This document shows positions 40,200 to 63,747 of a stretch of 64,000 nucleotides of DNA, piece by piece; within the stretch, counting starts at the first letter, position 1; every line of letters begins with the position of its first letter. Below the pieces are notes generated by a model, which ran no database searches, was not told the origin of the DNA, and worked only from the letters and a program-made list of their open reading frames with translations. This stretch comes from a virus, in the IMG/VR virus record IMGVR_UViG_3300009610_000028, positions 19,415 through 83,414 of that record, one strand, 5' to 3'. Position numbers and translations under genes: made by a program.

Positions 40200-41096
40200 A
40201 TGGACGACAAGGTTGCGTTCCTGCCCGTTGATCGTCTTTTAGAACCTAAGAGTCTGCTGCGGCTGGTTGATCGGAACTCACTCGACTACATGCAGATGCT
40301 GGACAGCATCCGCGAGTGGAAGGTGTTGAAGCCGATCCTCGTTAGACCGTCCTCGCAAGACGGGTACTACGAGATCATCGACGGTCTGTATCGCTATAGC
40401 TGTGCTAAGGATGCCGGCCTGGCAACAGTGCCCGCGCACATCAAGCACGGCGTCACAGACGACGACGTACTGATCCTGCAAATTCAGACGAACGCGATCT
40501 CGCCTGAAACAAAGCCGATGGAGTACGCCGAGCAGATGAAACGTCTGCTCGTGCGGAAACCGGACTTAACGGTGCGTGAATTGGCTCGCCTCATCCGCAA
40601 GTCAACCTCATGGATCAATGATCGCCTCGGATTGCTAAACCTTCGCAAAGAGTTGAAGCAAGTTGTGGAGCGCGGAGAAATCTCGCTCGCCAATGCTTAC
40701 ATGCTCGCGAAGATTCCCAAGTCGATGCAACTCGACTATGTGGACCAAGCGAAGACGATGCCAGGTAGAGCCTTCAAGGCGCTGGCCGCTGCTTGTGTAA
40801 AGCGATTCATGGAGGCGGTGCAACAGGGAAAGATGGATGCCTTCTATGCGGAGCAATTCTCTCCGCAGGCCCATCTCAGATCGCTAACGGACATCGAGAA
40901 CGAGATCAGCAAGCAAGGGGTCGGAGCACTGGTTGCGGTGGGTGAGGGCTGCCAAACCGTGCTGGACGGCTTCTATGCGGGCCTGCGTTGGGCCTGCCAT
41001 CTCGATAGAGCCAGCGTGCAGGAACAAGAAGCCACGATTCGTGGCCGGGAAAGGCAGGTGCTTGATGTATCTGCGCTAGACGAAAGTCCTAGCTAA
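40200..41096 (+). CDS. ParB-like DNA-binding protein 1
   Basis: The 298-residue protein has a ParB/Srx-type N-terminal domain (VDRLLEP, SIREWKVLKPILVRP, IIDGLYRYSCAKDAGL) followed by a helix-turn-helix (VRELARLIRKSTSWINDRLGLL). The usual ENxxR motif is altered (QIQTNAISPETKPMEYAEQM), so CTP binding is uncertain. No ParA is present, so a partition role is unlikely; transcription control or replication accessory function is more plausible. It is the first rightward gene after the candidate origin, behind CGGAGAA. Confidence 0.75.
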   Translation: MDDKVAFLPVDRLLEPKSLLRLVDRNSLDYMQMLDSIREWKVLKPILVRPSSQDGYYEIIDGLYRYSCAKDAGLATVPAHIKHGVTDDDVLILQIQTNAISPETKPMEYAEQMKRLLVRKPDLTVRELARLIRKSTSWINDRLGLLNLRKELKQVVERGEISLANAYMLAKIPKSMQLDYVDQAKTMPGRAFKALAAACVKRFMEAVQQGKMDAFYAEQFSPQAHLRSLTDIENEISKQGVGALVAVGEGCQTVLDGFYAGLRWACHLDRASVQEQEATIRGRERQVLDVSALDESPS

Positions 41097-42685: not shown

Positions 42686-43213
42686 ATGCCTGTCGAAGCC
42701 GTGCTCATTCAACAGCCGGCAATCGACTTCACAACTCTTCTGACAATCAGTGGCCAAGCTCTCGGCCACAACATCGCCCGCGAGGCTGACACCAGTCACC
42801 GCAAGATGGCGGATGCTGAGAAGTTCCTGTCGTGCCTCTCAGCACTGCGGGATGAAGTCGTTGCACCAACTCCCAATCTTCTATCGCACGTCTCGTTCAG
42901 CGTCCTCTTGATCGCTGACAACTACGACCTACTAGACATCCTCGAATGCGCCTCCGGTATGCCGTTCGTGCGGGCTGAGACTACAGCCCCACAGGACATC
43001 GACCTGTGCGTCATCAGTGGAACGCTCCAGCAGTGGCGAGATGCCGTTGCCACGGGCACGTCCGAGTCAGTGTCGTCAAACGTGCGCCTCTGCTACTCAA
43101 AAATCCTTCTGCTGTTTGATCGCGTCGGCCTCTCGAACGTCTGGAAAGACTACGAGAAGCGCCCGTCCGCAGATCACAGCGGCTTCTACTTAGAGGACAA
43201 ACGGCGTGTCTGA
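42686..43213 (+). CDS. Hypothetical protein upstream of helicase
   Basis: A 175-residue, mostly helical protein (AREADTSHRKMADAEKFLSC, LCVISGTLQQWRDAVATG, SSNVRLCYSKILLLFDRVGL). It overlaps the helicase gene by 8 nt, so expression is coupled. It lacks recognisable motifs. It may assist the helicase or be an independent early protein. Confidence 0.6.
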   Translation: MPVEAVLIQQPAIDFTTLLTISGQALGHNIAREADTSHRKMADAEKFLSCLSALRDEVVAPTPNLLSHVSFSVLLIADNYDLLDILECASGMPFVRAETTAPQDIDLCVISGTLQQWRDAVATGTSESVSSNVRLCYSKILLLFDRVGLSNVWKDYEKRPSADHSGFYLEDKRRV

Positions 43214-45212
43214 AATTCTCGATGTCAAACTCACTACTCGAACTTCAAGCGGAAGACTGATTCGTTCATCGGCCAAGATTGAATACAAGGACGGCCGCAT
43301 CTACTTCGTCAAATCGCCCTTCTCGCTCAAAGACGAGATCAAGGCAATGCGGGGATCGCACTGGCACGGCCGGGAAGACGATTCCTACGAAGACTACCGG
43401 AAGATTTGGTCGGTCGATGACTGCCAACGCAATCGCTTCCAACTTGGCTTCCTCATGGAAGAGGATGTCTATGCCTGGTTCGACCGCGACCTGATCCAGC
43501 ACACCTATGAAGGCACGACGCTCGATGGGCTGCCCAAAGAGTTGATGCCCCACCAGAAGGACTTGGCGGATAGCGGCCTGACCTATCACTTCCAACTGTG
43601 GGCTGCGGAGATGGGCGTCGGCAAGACGCTGGCCGCCCAGAAGGTGATTGAGAAGAGCGGCGCGAAGCTTTGGTATTGGATCGGACCCAAGTCGTCGATA
43701 CCCAACATCAAGCGTGAGTTCCGCCGATGGGGCTTCAACTTCGATGGCCCAATCAAAGTCGAGTTCATCACCTACGAAGAACTCGTTCGTCGCGTTGACG
43801 ATTGGAACTGGGAAAGCGACAAGCTTCCCCAAGGCGTGATCTTCGACGAGTCCAGCCGCCTCAAGGGCGCTACGAGTCAACGGACCAAGGCCGCTCAGCG
43901 GCTGGCCGATTGGATTCGCGAGCACTACGGCGTCGAGAAGGGCTTCGTCATCGAGATGAGCGGAACGCCGTCTCCGAAGTCGCCTGTCGATTGGTGGAGT
44001 CAGTGCGAGATTGCCTGGCCTGGCTTCCTGCGAGAAGGCAGCCCGAAGGCGCTGGAGCAACGCTGCGGCTTTGTCGTTATGCAGCAGTTCGATGCGGGAG
44101 TGTTCCCGAAGCGGATTGGCTGGAAGGACGATGAGCGGAAATGCAAGCACTGCGGTCTCTTTGAAGAGGCCGGTGTTCACGAGCTTGATCCAGACGCGGC
44201 CGAGGCGGACTTTCACCGCTACGATCCGAGCATCAATGAAGTTGCCTTCATGTACGACCGGCTCAAGGGCCTGGTCGTAATCAAGCACAAGAAAGATTGC
44301 TTGACGTTGCCGGACAAACGCTACCGGAAAATCATGTGCCCGCCCAACGCGAGCACGCTCCGAGTGGCCAGTGCGATTGCCGAGAGTGCGCCCAACACGA
44401 TCACGGGCTTGACGCTGCTCCGCGAATTGAGCGACGGCTTCCAATACCGCGACGTGGAAGATGGAGAAATTCCTTGCCCGCACTGCCCGAAGAGTTGCGG
44501 GGAGATTGAGGAATGGTTCGATCCTTCTGACGAAGAGGCAACCTACAGTGCCATCGAGTTCCTCAGTGAGGAGTTCGTGGCCAAGCTCCAGAAGCGAATC
44601 GTGCCTTGCACGCGCTGCGGTGGCGACAAGGTTGTGCCGAAAGTTGTTCGGATCACTCGCGAGATTCCTTGCCCGAAAGACAAGGCTCTCAAGCAACTGC
44701 TCGAAGAGTGCGAAGAGACCGGCCGGATCGTGATCTTTGCTGGCTTCACTGGCAGCGTGGATCGCGTCGTTACCTTCTGCCAGAAAGAGAAGTGGTCGGT
44801 CGTTCGCTGCGACGGCCGTGGTTTCCAAGTCACCGACAAGGATGGCAACGTTATCACGCAGGGCGGCGAAGAGGCGCTCAACTACTGGGCCGACCGTGAG
44901 AACCAACACGTTGCCTTCGTGGCCCACCCTGAATCGGGCGGCATGAGCTTGACCCTGGTCGAAGCACGGATGGCCGTGTACTGGTCGAACAGCTTCAAGC
45001 CTGAGTACAGATCGCAAAGCGAAGATCGTATCCACCGTAAAGGAATGGATGAAAATCTTGGCTGTGAGATCGTTGATCTAATTCACCTGCCAACTGATTC
45101 GCGGGTGCTCGAAGTCATCCAAGCCAACCGCAAGTTGGAACTGATGACGATGGGCGAGTTCACGGACGCTCTCGAAGGTGAGGGCGCGGATGTCGAAGAA
45201 CTCGCGGCCTAA
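43206..45212 (+). CDS. SNF2-type superfamily 2 helicase with zinc-binding cysteines
   Basis: The 668-residue protein starts at GTG 43206. Helicase motifs are visible: Q-like LPKELMPHQKDLADSG, motif I AAEMGVGKTLAA (133-144), motif II VIFDESSRLK (211-220; DESS instead of DEAH), motif III MSGTP and motif VI QSEDRIHRKG. Between the lobes lie CKHC, CPHCPKSC and CTRCGG pairs that probably bind zinc. Such proteins move on duplex DNA and may remodel replication or recombination complexes. SWI/SNF-like helicases are common in large phages. Confidence 0.85.
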   Translation: MSEILDVKLTTRTSSGRLIRSSAKIEYKDGRIYFVKSPFSLKDEIKAMRGSHWHGREDDSYEDYRKIWSVDDCQRNRFQLGFLMEEDVYAWFDRDLIQHTYEGTTLDGLPKELMPHQKDLADSGLTYHFQLWAAEMGVGKTLAAQKVIEKSGAKLWYWIGPKSSIPNIKREFRRWGFNFDGPIKVEFITYEELVRRVDDWNWESDKLPQGVIFDESSRLKGATSQRTKAAQRLADWIREHYGVEKGFVIEMSGTPSPKSPVDWWSQCEIAWPGFLREGSPKALEQRCGFVVMQQFDAGVFPKRIGWKDDERKCKHCGLFEEAGVHELDPDAAEADFHRYDPSINEVAFMYDRLKGLVVIKHKKDCLTLPDKRYRKIMCPPNASTLRVASAIAESAPNTITGLTLLRELSDGFQYRDVEDGEIPCPHCPKSCGEIEEWFDPSDEEATYSAIEFLSEEFVAKLQKRIVPCTRCGGDKVVPKVVRITREIPCPKDKALKQLLEECEETGRIVIFAGFTGSVDRVVTFCQKEKWSVVRCDGRGFQVTDKDGNVITQGGEEALNYWADRENQHVAFVAHPESGGMSLTLVEARMAVYWSNSFKPEYRSQSEDRIHRKGMDENLGCEIVDLIHLPTDSRVLEVIQANRKLELMTMGEFTDALEGEGADVEELAA

Positions 45213-48794: not shown

Positions 48795-48960
48795 ACGTGT
48801 TTTCAAAGCTCTGCTCGACGAACTGAACAACTTCGAGAAGGGTGAAGTGTGCGTGGCGCTCGCGGAGTTTCTCCGCGACCAAGACTATTTCGTCGCCGAG
48901 GACGAGGACGAACTGTTTGACCTGGCCCTGGAAAACACGGACCTCGTTGAACCCGAATAG
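48784..48960 (+). CDS. Small acidic protein (58 aa)
   Basis: GAGGA lies 6 nt before ATG 48784; the ATG at 48778 is too close to it. The acidic sequence ERVFKALLDELNNFEKGEVC, VALAEFLRDQDYFVAEDEDE is helical throughout. A terminator follows the stop. Function unknown. Confidence 0.6.
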   Translation: MDAERVFKALLDELNNFEKGEVCVALAEFLRDQDYFVAEDEDELFDLALENTDLVEPE

Positions 48961-48967
48961 GATATAT

Positions 48968-48994
48968 GCCCGGCCTCGCGGCCGGGCTTTCTTC
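48968..48994 (+). terminator. Intrinsic terminator
   Basis: GCCCGGCC (48968-48975) pairs perfectly with GGCCGGGC (48980-48987) around TCGC, followed by TTTCTTC. It ends directly upstream of the second ParB-like gene. Confidence 0.88.
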
Positions 48995-49000
48995 GTCTCT

Positions 49001-49834
49001 ATGGAACGCATCGCAAAGTACGACGCCTATCGGGTGCCCACGCCACGTATCTACGTGGACCTCGATTTCAACTGCCGGCTACCGTTCACTTTGGAATCGG
49101 TGCAGAGCCTGGCTGACAACATTCGCGACAACGATCTTGAGATTCCGGTCGTGCTCCAGCGCGTGAGCGACATGGACAACCCGATCTCAGGATTCGACTT
49201 CCGTCTCGTCGCTGGTTTCCGTCGCTACTTCGCGATGGTCTATCTGCTCAAGTGGACGGAGATTCCTGCAAACATCCGAGAAGGAATGACGGATCGTCAG
49301 GCGGAGATTCTCAACCTGACGGAGAACCTGGAGCGCCGAGACCTGAACCCACTGGAAGAAGCGCAAGCACTTGCTCGACGCTTCCCACCTGGCACGCCGC
49401 TTCGCACGATTGCCAAGGCCGTGAATCGCGACAAGCGATGGGTTAGCCAGCGTCTTCACATCATGGAGCTTGCCGAACAACTCCGACCGAAGGTGGCAGC
49501 CAAGATGCTGACGCTGCTCGATGTCGAGATGCTCGTCAAGCTGCCGCCGGAGAGACAGATCGAAGGTGCCAACGAGTTGATCCAAGCTCGCGGCAAGAAT
49601 AAGCACAAGCTCAAAGTCAATCCTGAGTTCCGTCGCAAGTTCCGCGAGAAGCGGGGCAAAGAGGAAGTGAACCGCAGGATCGCCCAACTTCTGCAACTGG
49701 GACTCGGCGGACTAGCAACCCGCTTCGGTGCCTGGTTTGTGGGTTATATCAGTGATGAGGATTTTGACGGCGACATACGGCTTGCCCTCAAATCTTTGGA
49801 CCCAAAATCGGCACAACCTGCATTTGCCGGGTAG
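49001..49834 (+). CDS. ParB-like CTPase/DNA-binding protein 2
   Basis: A 277-residue protein from ATG 49001. It retains both CTP-binding motifs of ParB: GFRRYFA (box C1) and ENLERRDLNPLEEA (box C2), followed by the helix-turn-helix LRTIAKAVNRDKRWVSQRLH. The first ParB-like protein (40200) lacks a clean C2 box, so only this copy looks able to act as a CTP clamp. No ParA is present, so roles in gene control, chromosome compaction or spreading on phage DNA are more likely than classical partition. It follows a terminator closely. Confidence 0.8.
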   Translation: MERIAKYDAYRVPTPRIYVDLDFNCRLPFTLESVQSLADNIRDNDLEIPVVLQRVSDMDNPISGFDFRLVAGFRRYFAMVYLLKWTEIPANIREGMTDRQAEILNLTENLERRDLNPLEEAQALARRFPPGTPLRTIAKAVNRDKRWVSQRLHIMELAEQLRPKVAAKMLTLLDVEMLVKLPPERQIEGANELIQARGKNKHKLKVNPEFRRKFREKRGKEEVNRRIAQLLQLGLGGLATRFGAWFVGYISDEDFDGDIRLALKSLDPKSAQPAFAG

Positions 49835-50010: not shown

Positions 50011-50406
50011 ATGTACCCAGATCACGAGAAGGACTTTCTCATCCCAGTCAAGCTCAAGAGCGGGTTAGTTGTTTACCTGCTTGAAGAGGATGACGCCGAC
50101 GCTGTGAAGGCCGCTGATCGAGCCGGCCGACCGCTTCCGCCACCGAAGAATCACCGGCTGCTGCCGTTCGGTCAGGGAGTCAAAGAGATCACTAGCGAGC
50201 GCTTCGAGTGCCACTACCGAGATGAGAGTCTCGGCACCTTTCGCACGCTCTATGAAGCTCTTTCGCAATGGGACTACGCAGAACGCTACGAGCGCTTCTG
50301 CATCATTCGTGATCGCGAGCAAGCGGAGATTGACTCCCGCTATTACTCCGAACTGACATTCGACAAGGACGGCTACAAGGTGTTCAAACCTCGGCCGAAA
50401 GAATGA
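50011..50406 (+). CDS. Hypothetical protein upstream of DNA polymerase
   Basis: A 131-residue protein (DFLIPVKLKSGLVVYLLEED, HYRDESLGTFRTLYEALSQWDYAERYERF) overlapping the polymerase gene as ATGA. Mixed alpha/beta with charged ends. Coupling to the polymerase suggests a replication role, but no motif identifies it. It starts 11 nt after the structured RNA candidate. Confidence 0.6.
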   Translation: MYPDHEKDFLIPVKLKSGLVVYLLEEDDADAVKAADRAGRPLPPPKNHRLLPFGQGVKEITSERFECHYRDESLGTFRTLYEALSQWDYAERYERFCIIRDREQAEIDSRYYSELTFDKDGYKVFKPRPKE

Positions 50407-52931
50407 GCAAGATTTACATCGACTCCGAGACGTGCGGCCTGCACTCTCAGATGGTTCTCTTGCAGTACGCAGAAGAAGACGGCCCGATTGTTTTGCACGA
50501 CGTATGGACTCGCCCGATTCGTGAGACGCTCCAGATCATCGAGTGGTTCTGCGAGAACACGGTGGTTGGATTCAACTTGGCGTTTGACTGGTTTCAAATC
50601 GTCAAGACGTACACGACATTCCGGCTGGCCAATCCTGACTGGATTCCCCACGAGCACATCAACGAAATTGCAATGCTTGAGCCGGCCGCCCAAGACGGCC
50701 CGTGCGTCAAGCCGGCCAACGCGCTCGATCTGCTGCTGCACTCCCGTAAGGGACCGTATCAATCTCTGATGGCCCGCGAGGACATCAGAATCCGCAAGGT
50801 GCCTACCGCTCTAGCGTATGCCCTCGCAATGGAACTGGAAGATCGCATCCATCTGGATGACATCTACTTCGCCAAGAGCGCCGACAAGGATGCTCCCAGG
50901 TGGCAAGTGTTCGACCGGAGAGCGCCTGATGGCACACTCGACGAAACGTTCAAAGATGTCGTTCTTCGTTTCAACGCCGCAGGCGGACTCAAATTCCTGG
51001 CCGAGCATGCTTTGGGATTCCAACCGAAATTCCATTACAAGGATGTCGAGCCTGATCCTGCCTGGCGACCCTATGAACTCGGATACGCTCCAACCGCTCT
51101 GGCCGTCTCAAGCCCCGAAGCTAACTGGGAAGTTTGGGGTAACAAAGACGGGAAGGATAAGCTGCTCGGCCGAGCCTGGCCGGCGGTCATCGACAAGTTC
51201 ATCGACCATTGGGCCACTCGCACCGATGCTCGCGAGTACGCCACGGACGACATCGTTTACACCAGAGCACTCGACAAGCACTTCGGTTGCCCGACGCCTG
51301 GTGATGATGACTCGATCCTGGCTTGCATGGTGCCGGTCATTCGTTGGCGTGGCTTCACGATCAACGTCGAAGGCATGAAGGGATTGTTGGCGGACGCTCA
51401 GAAGATCGTCGCCAGCAGCCCCGTCAACATCAACAAGCCGTCTGCCGTTCGTGCGTACCTCTTAGAGGTCATGGACGACATCGAGAGTCTCAAGATTCAG
51501 GAGAGCACGAAGAAAGCGAACCTTGAGGCCGTCTCGAAGTACGAAGTCAAAGCCAAGCTGATCGAAGAGGAAGACGAAGATGAAATCGGAACCGAGGGAA
51601 TCGAAGGTTGGGAAGAAATCAAAGACCCCGAATTCTGTCTCAAGTGCGATGGCACTGGACACCTTGGACCGAGCACTACTTGCGCTCGTTGTAATGGCCT
51701 CGGAGTTCTCAAAGCTGGAACAAAGCATCCGGCTGCTGTGCGAGCAAAAGAGCTTCTCAAAGTCAAGGTCGCCGCGAAAGAAATCGAACTCTACTCGAAG
51801 CTGATCTTCGCCAAGAAGTTCCACGCGAGCTTCAACATTGTGGGCACGTTGTCCAACCGCATGTCGGGTGGCGACGGCTTGAACGCCCAAGGGATCAAAG
51901 GCTCGGATGAAGTCCGTTGCATGTTCCCGCTGGCCTGGAAAGGCTACCAACTTTGCGGCGGTGACTTCGACTCATTTGAAGTGACCATCGCAGACGCGGT
52001 TTACAACGACCCTGAACTACGCAAGACGCTGGTCACCAAGGCAGCTTGCAAGTGCAAGGGCGAAGACAAAGAGTGCGACGACTGCGAAGGCACGGGCATC
52101 ACGACTAAGAAAGTCCATGCTCTATTCGCGATGATTATCTTCGACTGCACTTACGAAGAAGTGATCGCAGACAAGGACAAGTACAAGAAGGGCAAGGGTG
52201 GCGTGTTCGCCGAGATTTACGGCGGCAACGAAGACACCCTGGTCCGCAACCTTGGCATCAGCAAAGAGCTTGCGGTCAAAGCTCACAACGGATGGGCCGA
52301 ACGCTACAAGGGCATCGGCAAGTCACGTGAGCGGACGATCAAGAACTTCTGCTCGATGAAGCAGCCGGCCGGCGCTGGATCACAAGTGATCTGGGATGAG
52401 CCAGCCGAGTTCGTCGAAAGCTTCCTTGGTTTCCGTCGCTACTTCACGTTGGAAAACAAAATCTGTCGTGCCTTGTTTGACTTGGCACGCAAGCCGCCGA
52501 AGGGCTGGAAGAATCACCCGGTCAAAGTCGTCCGACGAGATCGCGTGCAAACAGCCGGCGGCGCAGTCGCTTCCGCTCTCTATGGGGCCGCCTTCCAAAT
52601 CCAGGCTGCCAACATGCGGGCTGCGGCCAACCACGAGATTCAGTCACCAGGCGGCCAGATCACCAAAGCGGTGCAGCGGGCCATCTGGGATTTGCAGCCT
52701 CACGGGATTCACGAGCTACTCGTCGGTCCCATGAACGTGCATGACGAACTCATGGTGAGCACTCACCCAAGTGTGGTGAAGCAAGTGACGCATAAGGTTC
52801 GGACGGTGGTTGAATCATACCGAGACAAAGTGCCACTCATCGGTATGTCCTGGTTCGAGGAAATGGCGAACTGGGCAGAGAAAAAAGATGGCGCTCAAAA
52901 GGTCAAGATTCGTGCCCCGGAGATGATGTGA
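50403..52931 (+). CDS. Family A DNA polymerase with 3'-5' exonuclease and two CxxC-type inserts
   Basis: The 842-residue replicative polymerase has an exonuclease domain (IDSETCG with Asp7/Glu9, GFNLAFDWF with Asn58/Asp62, YATDD with Asp283). Its polymerase motifs are divergent: A (GGDFDSFE, Asp521), a B-like GKGGVFAEIYGG and C (NVHDELMV, His780-Asp781-Glu782). Two cysteine-rich inserts occur: CLKCDGTG...CARCNGLG (412-434), which looks like a DnaJ zinc finger, and CKC...CDDCEGTG (549-565) just after motif A. No 5'-nuclease domain is present. Confidence 0.9.
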   Translation: MSKIYIDSETCGLHSQMVLLQYAEEDGPIVLHDVWTRPIRETLQIIEWFCENTVVGFNLAFDWFQIVKTYTTFRLANPDWIPHEHINEIAMLEPAAQDGPCVKPANALDLLLHSRKGPYQSLMAREDIRIRKVPTALAYALAMELEDRIHLDDIYFAKSADKDAPRWQVFDRRAPDGTLDETFKDVVLRFNAAGGLKFLAEHALGFQPKFHYKDVEPDPAWRPYELGYAPTALAVSSPEANWEVWGNKDGKDKLLGRAWPAVIDKFIDHWATRTDAREYATDDIVYTRALDKHFGCPTPGDDDSILACMVPVIRWRGFTINVEGMKGLLADAQKIVASSPVNINKPSAVRAYLLEVMDDIESLKIQESTKKANLEAVSKYEVKAKLIEEEDEDEIGTEGIEGWEEIKDPEFCLKCDGTGHLGPSTTCARCNGLGVLKAGTKHPAAVRAKELLKVKVAAKEIELYSKLIFAKKFHASFNIVGTLSNRMSGGDGLNAQGIKGSDEVRCMFPLAWKGYQLCGGDFDSFEVTIADAVYNDPELRKTLVTKAACKCKGEDKECDDCEGTGITTKKVHALFAMIIFDCTYEEVIADKDKYKKGKGGVFAEIYGGNEDTLVRNLGISKELAVKAHNGWAERYKGIGKSRERTIKNFCSMKQPAGAGSQVIWDEPAEFVESFLGFRRYFTLENKICRALFDLARKPPKGWKNHPVKVVRRDRVQTAGGAVASALYGAAFQIQAANMRAAANHEIQSPGGQITKAVQRAIWDLQPHGIHELLVGPMNVHDELMVSTHPSVVKQVTHKVRTVVESYRDKVPLIGMSWFEEMANWAEKKDGAQKVKIRAPEMM

Positions 52932-61830: not shown

Positions 61831-62047
61831 TCAAGCTCTGGCCCGCATCAAGGAGTCTCCGATGCGGGGTGAAGGCATTGCCACCATCTTCGAGGCAATG
61901 GCTGGCGCTCTCAAGTTCGGGTCACCAACTGCTCACTTCGCGTTGGATTTTCAGCATCCCGATGACGTGCTGAACGACTCCGATCTCATCCCGGTCATCA
62001 CTCTATCTCTCAGGCCCGCACGGGTAACGGAAAGCACCCACGAGTAA
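61817..62047 (+). CDS. Small hypothetical protein (76 aa)
   Basis: A short frame (MQIASQALARIKESPMRGEG, IATIFEAMAGALKFGSPTAH) between two overlapping neighbours, with GGAGCGG ahead. The end is acidic (DDVLNDSDLIPVITL). Coupled by TAATG to the ribonucleotide reductase gene. Function unknown. Confidence 0.5.
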   Translation: MQIASQALARIKESPMRGEGIATIFEAMAGALKFGSPTAHFALDFQHPDDVLNDSDLIPVITLSLRPARVTESTHE

Positions 62048-63747
62048 TGTTTCAATCCGAAGTGAACCCAATGTTCCGCTCGAAGTTCAGCGAGGACATT
62101 TTCAACGCCAAGTATCGGCATACTGGCTGCGAGACGTGGGCGAAGCTGGCCGAGGTTCTGGTTGACGACGTTTGCGGAAAGGTTGGTGATAAGCATCCAC
62201 AACTACTGACTGATGACGAGATCAAGACGCTCAAGCAGTACATCACCGATCTCAAGTTCATCCCCGGCGGTCGCTATCTCTATTACGCAGGTCGCGGCAA
62301 GAAGTTCTTCAACAACTGCTACCTCCTGAAAGCTGAGGAAGATAGCCGCGAAGACTGGGCCAACCTGTCATGGAAGGCTGAGTCCTGCCTGATGACTGGC
62401 GGCGGGATCGGCATCGACTACTCGATCTATCGCAAGAGCAACTCGGTTCTATCTGGCACCGGCGGCCTGGCCTCTGGGCCGATTCCGAAGATGCTGATGA
62501 TTAACGAGATCGGCCGCAACGTGATGCAGGGCGGCTCTCGCCGATCTGCGATCTACGCTTCTCTCAACTGGAAGCATGGCGATGTTGACAAGTTCCTGAC
62601 CGTCAAGAACTGGGACAAGATCGGAGTGCCGGGCACGAAGCTCACGCTCGCCGATCTCAAGCAGCTTGACTTCAACTGGCCAGCGCCGTTGGACATGACC
62701 AACATCAGTGTCAACTATGACACGGATTGGTATCTCCAATACTGCAAGACGAAAGACCCTGGCGAAGTCTTTATGAAGAACCTGTTGCAGGCCGTCTCCT
62801 CGGCCGAGCCAGGATTCTCATTCAACTTCTTCGAGCAAGAGGCGGACACACTCCGCAACGCTTGTACCGAAGTGGTTAGTGCCGACGACTCCGATGTCTG
62901 CAATCTCGGCAGCATTAACATGGGTCGCATCGCAACGATTGAAGAGTTCAAACAAGTCTGCGAACTGGCCACGAAGTTTCTAGTCTGCGGCACACTGCGG
63001 GCTGATCTGCCCTACGAGAAGGTCTATAAGGTGCGCGAGAAGAATCGCCGCCTGGGCCTCGGTCTGATGGGCATCCACGAATGGATGCTGCAACGTGGCT
63101 ATCGCTACGAAGTCACGCCAGAGCTTCACGACTGGCTGCGGTTCTACCGGGGCATGACGAACAAGGTCTCAACCGAGTTCTCCGACAAGCTCTCGATTTC
63201 GCGGCCCATTGCCAAACGCGCGATCGCGCCTACAGGCACGATTGGCATCTTGGCGGGCACGAGCACTGGCATAGAACCGATCTTCGCGGTTGCGTACAAG
63301 CGCCGCTACCTGCGAGAGGGTACGAAGTGGCACTACCAATACGTGGTTGATTCGGCCGCCCAAGAGTTGATCCAACTCTACGGCCTCAATCCTGAGAAGG
63401 TGGAAAGCGCACTCGACCTGGCAGACGACTATGAGCGCCGAATGAAGGTCCAGGCCGACGTACAGGATTACGTTGACCAGGCCATTAGCTCGACGATCAA
63501 CCTGCCGAAGTGGGGCAGCAAGCACAACAGCCCCGACACAGTGAAGGACTTCGCGATCACGCTTGCGAAGTATGCCCCGCGTCTTCGCGGCTTCACTTGC
63601 TATCCCGATGGTGCTCGCGGCGGACAGCCGTTGACATCGGTGAGCTACTCCGAAGCGGTCGAGAACCTTGGCAAAGAGTTCGAGGAAGCCGTGGAGACCC
63701 ATGACATCTGCTCGCTAACCGGGCATGGAGGAGTGTGCGGAGTATGA
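62047..63747 (+). CDS. Ribonucleotide reductase, class II (B12-dependent type)
   Basis: A 566-residue reductase. Redox cysteines are Cys91 (KFFNNCYLL) and Cys285 (SDVCNLGSINM); the catalytic NxCxE motif is RNACTEV (Asn271, Cys273, Glu275). AIAPTGTIGILAGTSTGIEP is the conserved phosphate-binding loop. The C-terminus ends with a cysteine pair (CSLTGHGGVC) for electron relay. A single chain without a small subunit gene nearby suggests adenosylcobalamin-type class II. It makes deoxynucleotides for phage replication and precedes dCMP deaminase. Confidence 0.88.
   Translation: MFQSEVNPMFRSKFSEDIFNAKYRHTGCETWAKLAEVLVDDVCGKVGDKHPQLLTDDEIKTLKQYITDLKFIPGGRYLYYAGRGKKFFNNCYLLKAEEDSREDWANLSWKAESCLMTGGGIGIDYSIYRKSNSVLSGTGGLASGPIPKMLMINEIGRNVMQGGSRRSAIYASLNWKHGDVDKFLTVKNWDKIGVPGTKLTLADLKQLDFNWPAPLDMTNISVNYDTDWYLQYCKTKDPGEVFMKNLLQAVSSAEPGFSFNFFEQEADTLRNACTEVVSADDSDVCNLGSINMGRIATIEEFKQVCELATKFLVCGTLRADLPYEKVYKVREKNRRLGLGLMGIHEWMLQRGYRYEVTPELHDWLRFYRGMTNKVSTEFSDKLSISRPIAKRAIAPTGTIGILAGTSTGIEPIFAVAYKRRYLREGTKWHYQYVVDSAAQELIQLYGLNPEKVESALDLADDYERRMKVQADVQDYVDQAISSTINLPKWGSKHNSPDTVKDFAITLAKYAPRLRGFTCYPDGARGGQPLTSVSYSEAVENLGKEFEEAVETHDICSLTGHGGVCGV

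Follow-up and report, generated by a model that had tools for sequence, protein, structure and literature searches.

The virus-derived DNA analysed here encodes a family A DNA polymerase that carries two cysteine-rich inserts and belongs to a widespread and largely undescribed polymerase family. One of the inserts is a putative zinc hairpin in the thumb that may serve as a plug-in site for partners, and some family members contain a J-domain at exactly this site, which, if working, would turn the polymerase into a co-chaperone of DnaK and bring host Hsp70 to the replication fork. We regard this combined reading as a serious possibility whose chances fall a little short of even. Throughout the text, the window denotes the whole stretch of 64,000 nucleotides that was analysed; it was taken from a virus record with a length of 83,414 bases (IMG/VR record IMGVR_UViG_3300009610_000028).

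The polymerase and its active site

An earlier note on this DNA had read positions 50403-52931 as a family A DNA polymerase with exonuclease motifs, and this assignment is corroborated by Pfam, PHROG, the fold match and an alignment to PolA from Escherichia coli. The open reading frame starts with ATG at position 50403, ends with its stop codon at 52931, exactly as given in that note, and encodes 842 amino acids. The following features are relevant here:

50403..52931, + strand: phage DNA polymerase of family A, 842 amino acids, including a 3'-5' exonuclease (Pfam, PHROG, Foldseek)
50403..51281, + strand: 3'-5' exonuclease domain, residues ~1-293 (aligned to the PolA exonuclease region)
51546..51725, + strand: insert 1, residues 382-441, a thumb insertion separating the counterparts of helices H2 and I (hhalign to PolA; joint alignment with T7, PolA and G20c)
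51561..51623, + strand: acidic flexible linker within insert 1, residues 387-407, EEEDEDE... (pLDDT below 50)
51636..51704, + strand: predicted zinc knuckle 1, CLKCDGTG-CARCNGLG, residues 412-434 (conservation as a cysteine block; site of the nested J-domain in relatives)
51963..51980, + strand: motif A, DFDSFE, residues 521-526, with catalytic Asp521 and Glu526 (aligned to PolA D705/E710)
52041..52103, + strand: insert 2 with CxC...CxxCxGxG, residues 547-567, following the motif A helix and preceding fingers helix N (absent from PolA; cysteine block)
52182..52223, + strand: motif B, residues 594-607; Tyr594 replaces PolA Arg754 (K598, F602 and Y606 kept)
52740..52748, + strand: motif C, His-Asp-Glu, residues 780-782 (conservation among homologs)

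The Pfam profile DNA_pol_A matches the protein with 65.8 bits against a cut-off of 34.3 (4.4e-18), which places it in family A, and PHROG 17 (DNA polymerase) matches at 3.6e-31. An AlphaFold model built with 81 aligned sequences has a mean pLDDT of 90.9. When this model was compared with solved structures in Foldseek, DNA polymerase I of phage G20c was the top PDB match, followed by the Klenow fragment (1e-13 to 1e-14), and T7 and other family A polymerases were matched as well. The polymerases that come closest in fold and profile, G20c/P23-45 DNA polymerase I (PDB 7r0k) and PolA Klenow, have the same palm, fingers, thumb and 3'-5' exonuclease, but they share only ~13-17% identity with the window polymerase and both lack inserts 1 and 2; in addition, PolA has Arg754 where a tyrosine is found here.

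Scans of viral contigs and bacterial genomes provided 116 distinct full-length homologs besides the window protein, and the conservation of individual residues was assessed on this basis. The exonuclease residues (Exo I D7/E9, Exo II D62 and Exo III Y279/D283) are each kept in 116-117 of the 117 homologs, and the 3'-5' exonuclease of the window polymerase is, as far as its sequence tells, intact. In the polymerase domain, equivalents of PolA R668, D705, E710, K758, F762, Y766, H881, D882 and E883 are all present and near-invariant among the 117 homologs. Those of D705, E710, D882 and E883 (the catalytic carboxylates in motifs A and C) and of K758, F762 and Y766 (in the O-helix) are kept in 115-117 of them.

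Motifs A and B had both been called unusual in the earlier note. Motif A is ordinary as far as its catalytic residues are concerned: Asp521 (PolA D705) and Glu526 (PolA E710) occur in 117/117 homologs. Motif B, on the other hand, is indeed deviant. It reads YKKGKGGVFAEIYGG and retains K598, F602 and Y606 as the counterparts of PolA K758, F762 and Y766, but the position of PolA Arg754 in the O-helix (52182-52184 in the window) is taken by Tyr594, and by tyrosine in all 116 readable homologs, such that the active site is not of the canonical Klenow/T7 type. In PolA, Arg754 contacts the phosphates of the incoming nucleotide. Judged from the alignment, the uniform exchange of this arginine for tyrosine is a second trait of the family. 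Phenylalanine at position 762 has been linked to virulent phages (PMC6302109); two of the homologs seemingly reside in prophages, and this link may therefore not hold for the polymerase family studied here.

Two cysteine-rich inserts

Units of the type CxxCxGxG start at residues 412, 427 and 558, just where the earlier note had seen them. They are not a matter of composition: among 100,000 shuffles of the same composition, 195 contained the unit once and none contained it three times. Cluster 1 comprises the cysteines at positions 412, 415, 427 and 430, and cluster 2 those at positions 549, 551, 558 and 561 in a CxC plus CxxC arrangement; mean pLDDT values amount to ~89-91 in the region of cluster 1 and to 82-91 in that of cluster 2. 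Cluster 2 had been described as directly following motif A, which is approximately right: it is located downstream, but starts 23 residues past the motif.

The cysteines were expected to be conserved in relatives and they are, in the form of all-or-none blocks. In cluster 1, C427 and C430 are cysteines in 97 of the 117 homologs and gapped in the other 20, while C412 is a cysteine in 95 and C415 in 97 of them; the block as such is absent in 18-20, and the knuckle pattern is retained even in relatives with ~45-50% identity. The four cysteines of cluster 2 occur together in 26-27 homologs, and 90 homologs lack the entire block. The nearest relative (L001/L027, ~80-83% identical) has kept cluster 1 and possesses a longer version of cluster 2 with seven cysteines. 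An absence of the clusters from close relatives, which the earlier note had named as evidence to the contrary, is thus not observed for cluster 1 and is seen in part for cluster 2, which most relatives are without. At both sites the four cysteines are conserved together, as is typical for zinc-binding proteins, and this gain and loss in blocks makes it very likely that both inserts bind zinc. Since 20 of the 117 homologs do without insert 1 and 90 without insert 2, neither can be required for polymerisation.

The number of cysteines in insert 1 varies across the homologs (0, 4, 8-10 and once 13). Six CxxC units with a total of 13 cysteines are found in insert 1 of the polymerases L106 and L010, compared to four such units in DnaJ. 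The resemblance to the DnaJ zinc finger pointed out in the earlier note is obvious at the level of the motif, as cluster 1 is clearly of the CxxCxGxG type, but it does not extend to the domain: the central zinc domain of DnaJ (PF00684) matches insert 1 below threshold (E=0.0015, 19.1 bits against a cut-off of 32.7), with two units instead of four. An identification of insert 1 as a DnaJ zinc domain was not adopted for this reason. Insert 1 carries a net charge of -7 in the window polymerase, with a homolog average of -2.3. Its acidic nature speaks against simple DNA binding and favours a protein partner.

The position of the inserts on the polymerase fold differs from what had been assumed. 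In an hhalign alignment, E. coli PolA is interrupted at residues 620/621 by insert 1 and at residues 728/729 by insert 2 (~547-567), neither of which has a counterpart in PolA. When transferred to the T7 polymerase, in which helix H2 spans residues 365-372, helix I residues 376-400 and helix N residues 504-514 (PMC9198812), insert 1 comes to lie between thumb helices H2 and I and insert 2 just ahead of fingers helix N; this placement is based on a joint MAFFT alignment together with PolA, the local profile alignment of T7 to the family being of low probability. The alignments thus put insert 1 into the thumb and insert 2 at the junction of palm and fingers. Zinc fingers inside the palm, as proposed in the earlier note, can be rejected for insert 1 because of its position in the thumb, and insert 2, part of the loop that leads from the motif A helix to helix N, constitutes a border case. 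In T7, helices H1, H2 and I crosslink to nucleic acid (PMC9198812).

The thumb of another phage enzyme of family A, T7 gp5, is likewise extended by an additional module, which binds a protein of the host and presumably forms a clamp in support of processivity (PMC9198812). The thioredoxin-binding insert of T7 precedes H1, ~45 alignment residues upstream of the site between H2 and I at which insert 1 with its predicted zinc knuckle resides. Insert 1 does not share the T7-type location before H1, and equating it with the thioredoxin-binding domain was rejected on these grounds; the two are neighbours that represent separate insertions.

A J-domain nested in the thumb insert of relatives

In five relatives on different contigs (L005, L033, L037, L056 and L063), ~55-65 residues intervene between the two CxxC pairs of insert 1, and they comprise a J-domain, the part of DnaJ by which DnaK is recruited. 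In a Pfam scan of ten members of the homolog set, all five exceed the cut-off for PF00226 (32.6-44.9 bits against 27.8, E-values of 8.8e-8 to 1.3e-11). J-domain polymerases number at least five. The HPD tripeptide is invariant in these five domains, and their profile matches many solved J-domains, among them that of SV40 large T (PDB 1gh6). The structural model of L056 has three helices (I-III) in the expected order with HPD between the second and the third (residues 427-477, pLDDT ~75-93). The junctions are precise: related polymerases with and without J-domain share the flanking sequences EPCGxC and CxRCGG. One J-domain polymerase is present on two contigs stemming from separate metagenomes (L119 and L120). 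The five J-domains differ at ~40-47% of positions from the first of them. Their pN/pS ratios amount to 0.31-0.54 and are below 1 in all ten pairs, the substitutions being mostly silent.

In a polymerase tree calculated with the insert columns left out, the J-domain changes state five times and inserts 1 and 2 eight times each. Among 60 viral J-domains, the five from polymerases form one group (SH-aLRT 88, a moderate support that stems from few columns), and the polymerases that carry them are scattered on the tree. The simplest readings of this pattern would be a single acquisition followed by repeated loss or a transfer of the J module between polymerases. In the window record a match to PF00226 was not found, and the window polymerase is not a J-domain polymerase. 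The phage records that encode J-domain polymerases are fragments, and in those examined neither a second J-domain nor DnaK/Hsp70 was found; a functional J-domain would consequently need the DnaK of the host. Many separate J-domain proteins of ~190-360 amino acids, some of them with four CxxC units, are encoded on viral contigs L121-L195, and none in this set matches the polymerase.

The combination of CxxCxGxG units in the polymerase thumb, four or more in some members, with a Pfam-grade J-domain including HPD in five relatives is reminiscent of DnaJ and other type I J-domain proteins. The differences are that the J-domain is situated inside the zinc hairpin instead of at the N-terminus, that a substrate-binding C-terminal domain is missing, that the zinc part scores below the cut-off and that the whole is embedded in a polymerase. 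As in RB43 Rki and the phage J-proteins of ~190-360 amino acids, the J-domain is phage-encoded, but in those proteins it is found at or near the N-terminus, whereas it is nested in the thumb here. SV40 large T antigen is also a viral replication protein with a J-domain; however, it is a helicase whose J-domain is N-terminal, and neither the polymerase context nor the location within a zinc finger is shared. In the open-licence literature we found neither a report of a DNA polymerase with an internal J-domain nor one describing zinc knuckles on the thumb of family A polymerases from phages.

Genomic neighbourhood and host

The ATG of the polymerase gene overlaps the stop codon of the preceding gene (50011-50406). 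Nearby, two ParB-like genes and genes for a helicase, an ATP-dependent DNA ligase, an RNA ligase, a deoxynucleotidase-like protein and ribonucleotide reductase are found, and the phage also has terminase, portal and tape-measure genes. The polymerase neighbourhood is the replication module of a tailed phage. The following genes of the window are referred to below:

2478-2702, + strand: thioredoxin-like gene (PF00085, 7.6e-12)
40200-41096 and 48842-49834, + strand: ParB-like genes, the second located two genes upstream of the polymerase gene
43206..45212, + strand: helicase with CxxC pairs, CKHC and CPHC...CTRCGG (PHROG 62 DNA helicase, 2.4e-45; sequence)

The helicase homolog encoded on contig L109 (3292-5409) contains CPHCDG...CPRCGGSG, pointing at zinc knuckles in a second replication protein. 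The thioredoxin-like protein possibly acts as a reductant for the phage ribonucleotide reductase (62047-63747).

A tblastn search against 50,697 named phage records gave zero matches at 1e-5, looser limits yielded weak matches in the palm region only, and a search of plasmids for relatives of the polymerase returned nothing useful. In bacterial genomes, homologs are present at nine loci, four of which are in metagenome-assembled genomes (MAGs) of Planctomycetota. Two contigs from Planctomycetota MAGs, L109 (444 kb) and L110 (290 kb), combine the polymerase homolog with ABC transporter genes. This is suggestive of prophages and, for some members of the family at least, of a planctomycete host, with misassembly of the MAGs as a possible source of error. 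The window polymerase is read as the replicative enzyme of a tailed phage, probably one of Planctomycetota.

Possible functions of the thumb insert

The overall best explanation, to which we give an even chance, is that a zinc-stabilised hairpin in the thumb constitutes an evolvable docking or clamp module that recruits host DnaK in some lineages. Insert 1 would form such a hairpin between the equivalents of helices H2 and I, in a part of the thumb whose T7 equivalent contacts nucleic acid, and insert 2 would provide a small second zinc loop at the base of the fingers. The thumb insert may hold a protein partner or help to embrace the primer-template, in a similar way as the thioredoxin-binding insert of T7 but from a nearby point. 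Taken by itself, this function as a docking or clamp module appears evenly balanced to somewhat favoured. In some lineages, the two CxxC pairs of the thumb insert have become four or more, and at least five lineages carry a complete J-domain inside the hairpin. There, it would most likely recruit host DnaK to the polymerase and thereby promote assembly, remodelling or stabilisation of the replication complex, and such recruitment is likely if the J-domain works as others do. RB43 Rki binds DnaK via its J-domain, DnaK, DnaJ and GrpE are required for replication of phages lambda, P1 and P2, and SV40 T antigen uses its J-domain in replication (PMC3486835). As the window polymerase has the zinc hairpin without J-domain, only the docking or clamp part of the explanation applies to it, and as most members of the family, that of the window included, lack a J-domain, recruitment of DnaK is not the general role of the insert.

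Both inserts may also be ordinary structural zinc knuckles at insertion-tolerant loops, stabilising the local fold with no role in partner binding or clamping, and the J-domain may be an occasional passenger. We consider this possible, albeit rather doubtful. Both insertion sites are loops between conserved helices, the frequent state changes on the tree (eight for either insert, five for the J-domain) would be in keeping with such tolerance, and the CxxC pairs in the neighbouring helicase look as if this group of phages favoured zinc knuckles. It would be less easily understood, however, why the knuckle pattern is maintained in 97 of the 117 homologs, relatives with ~45-50% identity included, why HPD is kept and pN/pS stays below 1 in all ten pairs of J-domains, and why the thumb site lies in a region that contacts DNA in T7 (PMC9198812).

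A redox or metal switch, in which oxidation of the cysteines or loss of zinc from the thumb insert alters the polymerase under host stress, appears unlikely. The cysteine-rich CxxC modules would be suited for this purpose, oxidoreductase activity is reported for DnaJ, and a thioredoxin-like gene is present in the same phage record (2478-2702). Thioredoxin is, however, equally well explained by the ribonucleotide reductase gene at 62047-63747, and it occurs in just three of eight related records. Quite unlikely, too, is a function outside of replication, in which the J-domain polymerases occupy or misdirect host DnaK/DnaJ and, for example, blunt chaperone-dependent sensing of phages. Although RB43 Rki acts on DnaK and sigma32 (PMC3486835) and, according to a study cited in PMC12619734, DnaJ is necessary for phage sensing by a bacterial NLR-like protein, a low-copy and site-bound polymerase would make a poor decoy, and a J-domain nested in the thumb instead of being separate argues for a role at the enzyme. 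Finally, an origin of the J-domain inserts from chimeric assembly or as dead insertions is rejected as highly improbable. Although these inserts are rare (5 of 117, a lower bound), they are in frame, and in all five divergent sequences they are joined precisely at the same place between two CxxC pairs. One J-domain polymerase recurs in two separate metagenomes, and the J-domains form one group (support 88), yet differ at ~40-47% of positions from the first and evolve under constraint.

Implications

Borrowing of host factors is a feature of phage replication, with thioredoxin in T7 and DnaK/DnaJ/GrpE in lambda as examples. A polymerase with a thumb-borne J-domain would, if true, unite T7-type and lambda-type borrowing in one enzyme. 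Whether Hsp70 acts on an active replisome could then be addressed directly, using a single purified protein and a single point mutation in HPD. Some phages may link a chaperone of the host directly to their replication machinery in this way. In addition, thumb inserts of graded complexity (absent, two CxxC pairs, four or more CxxC pairs, J-domain) occur naturally on one and the same polymerase scaffold in this family, and the O-helix arginine, a contact of the incoming nucleotide in well-studied family A polymerases, is lost throughout it. Such a series could aid studies of processivity and nucleotide selection.
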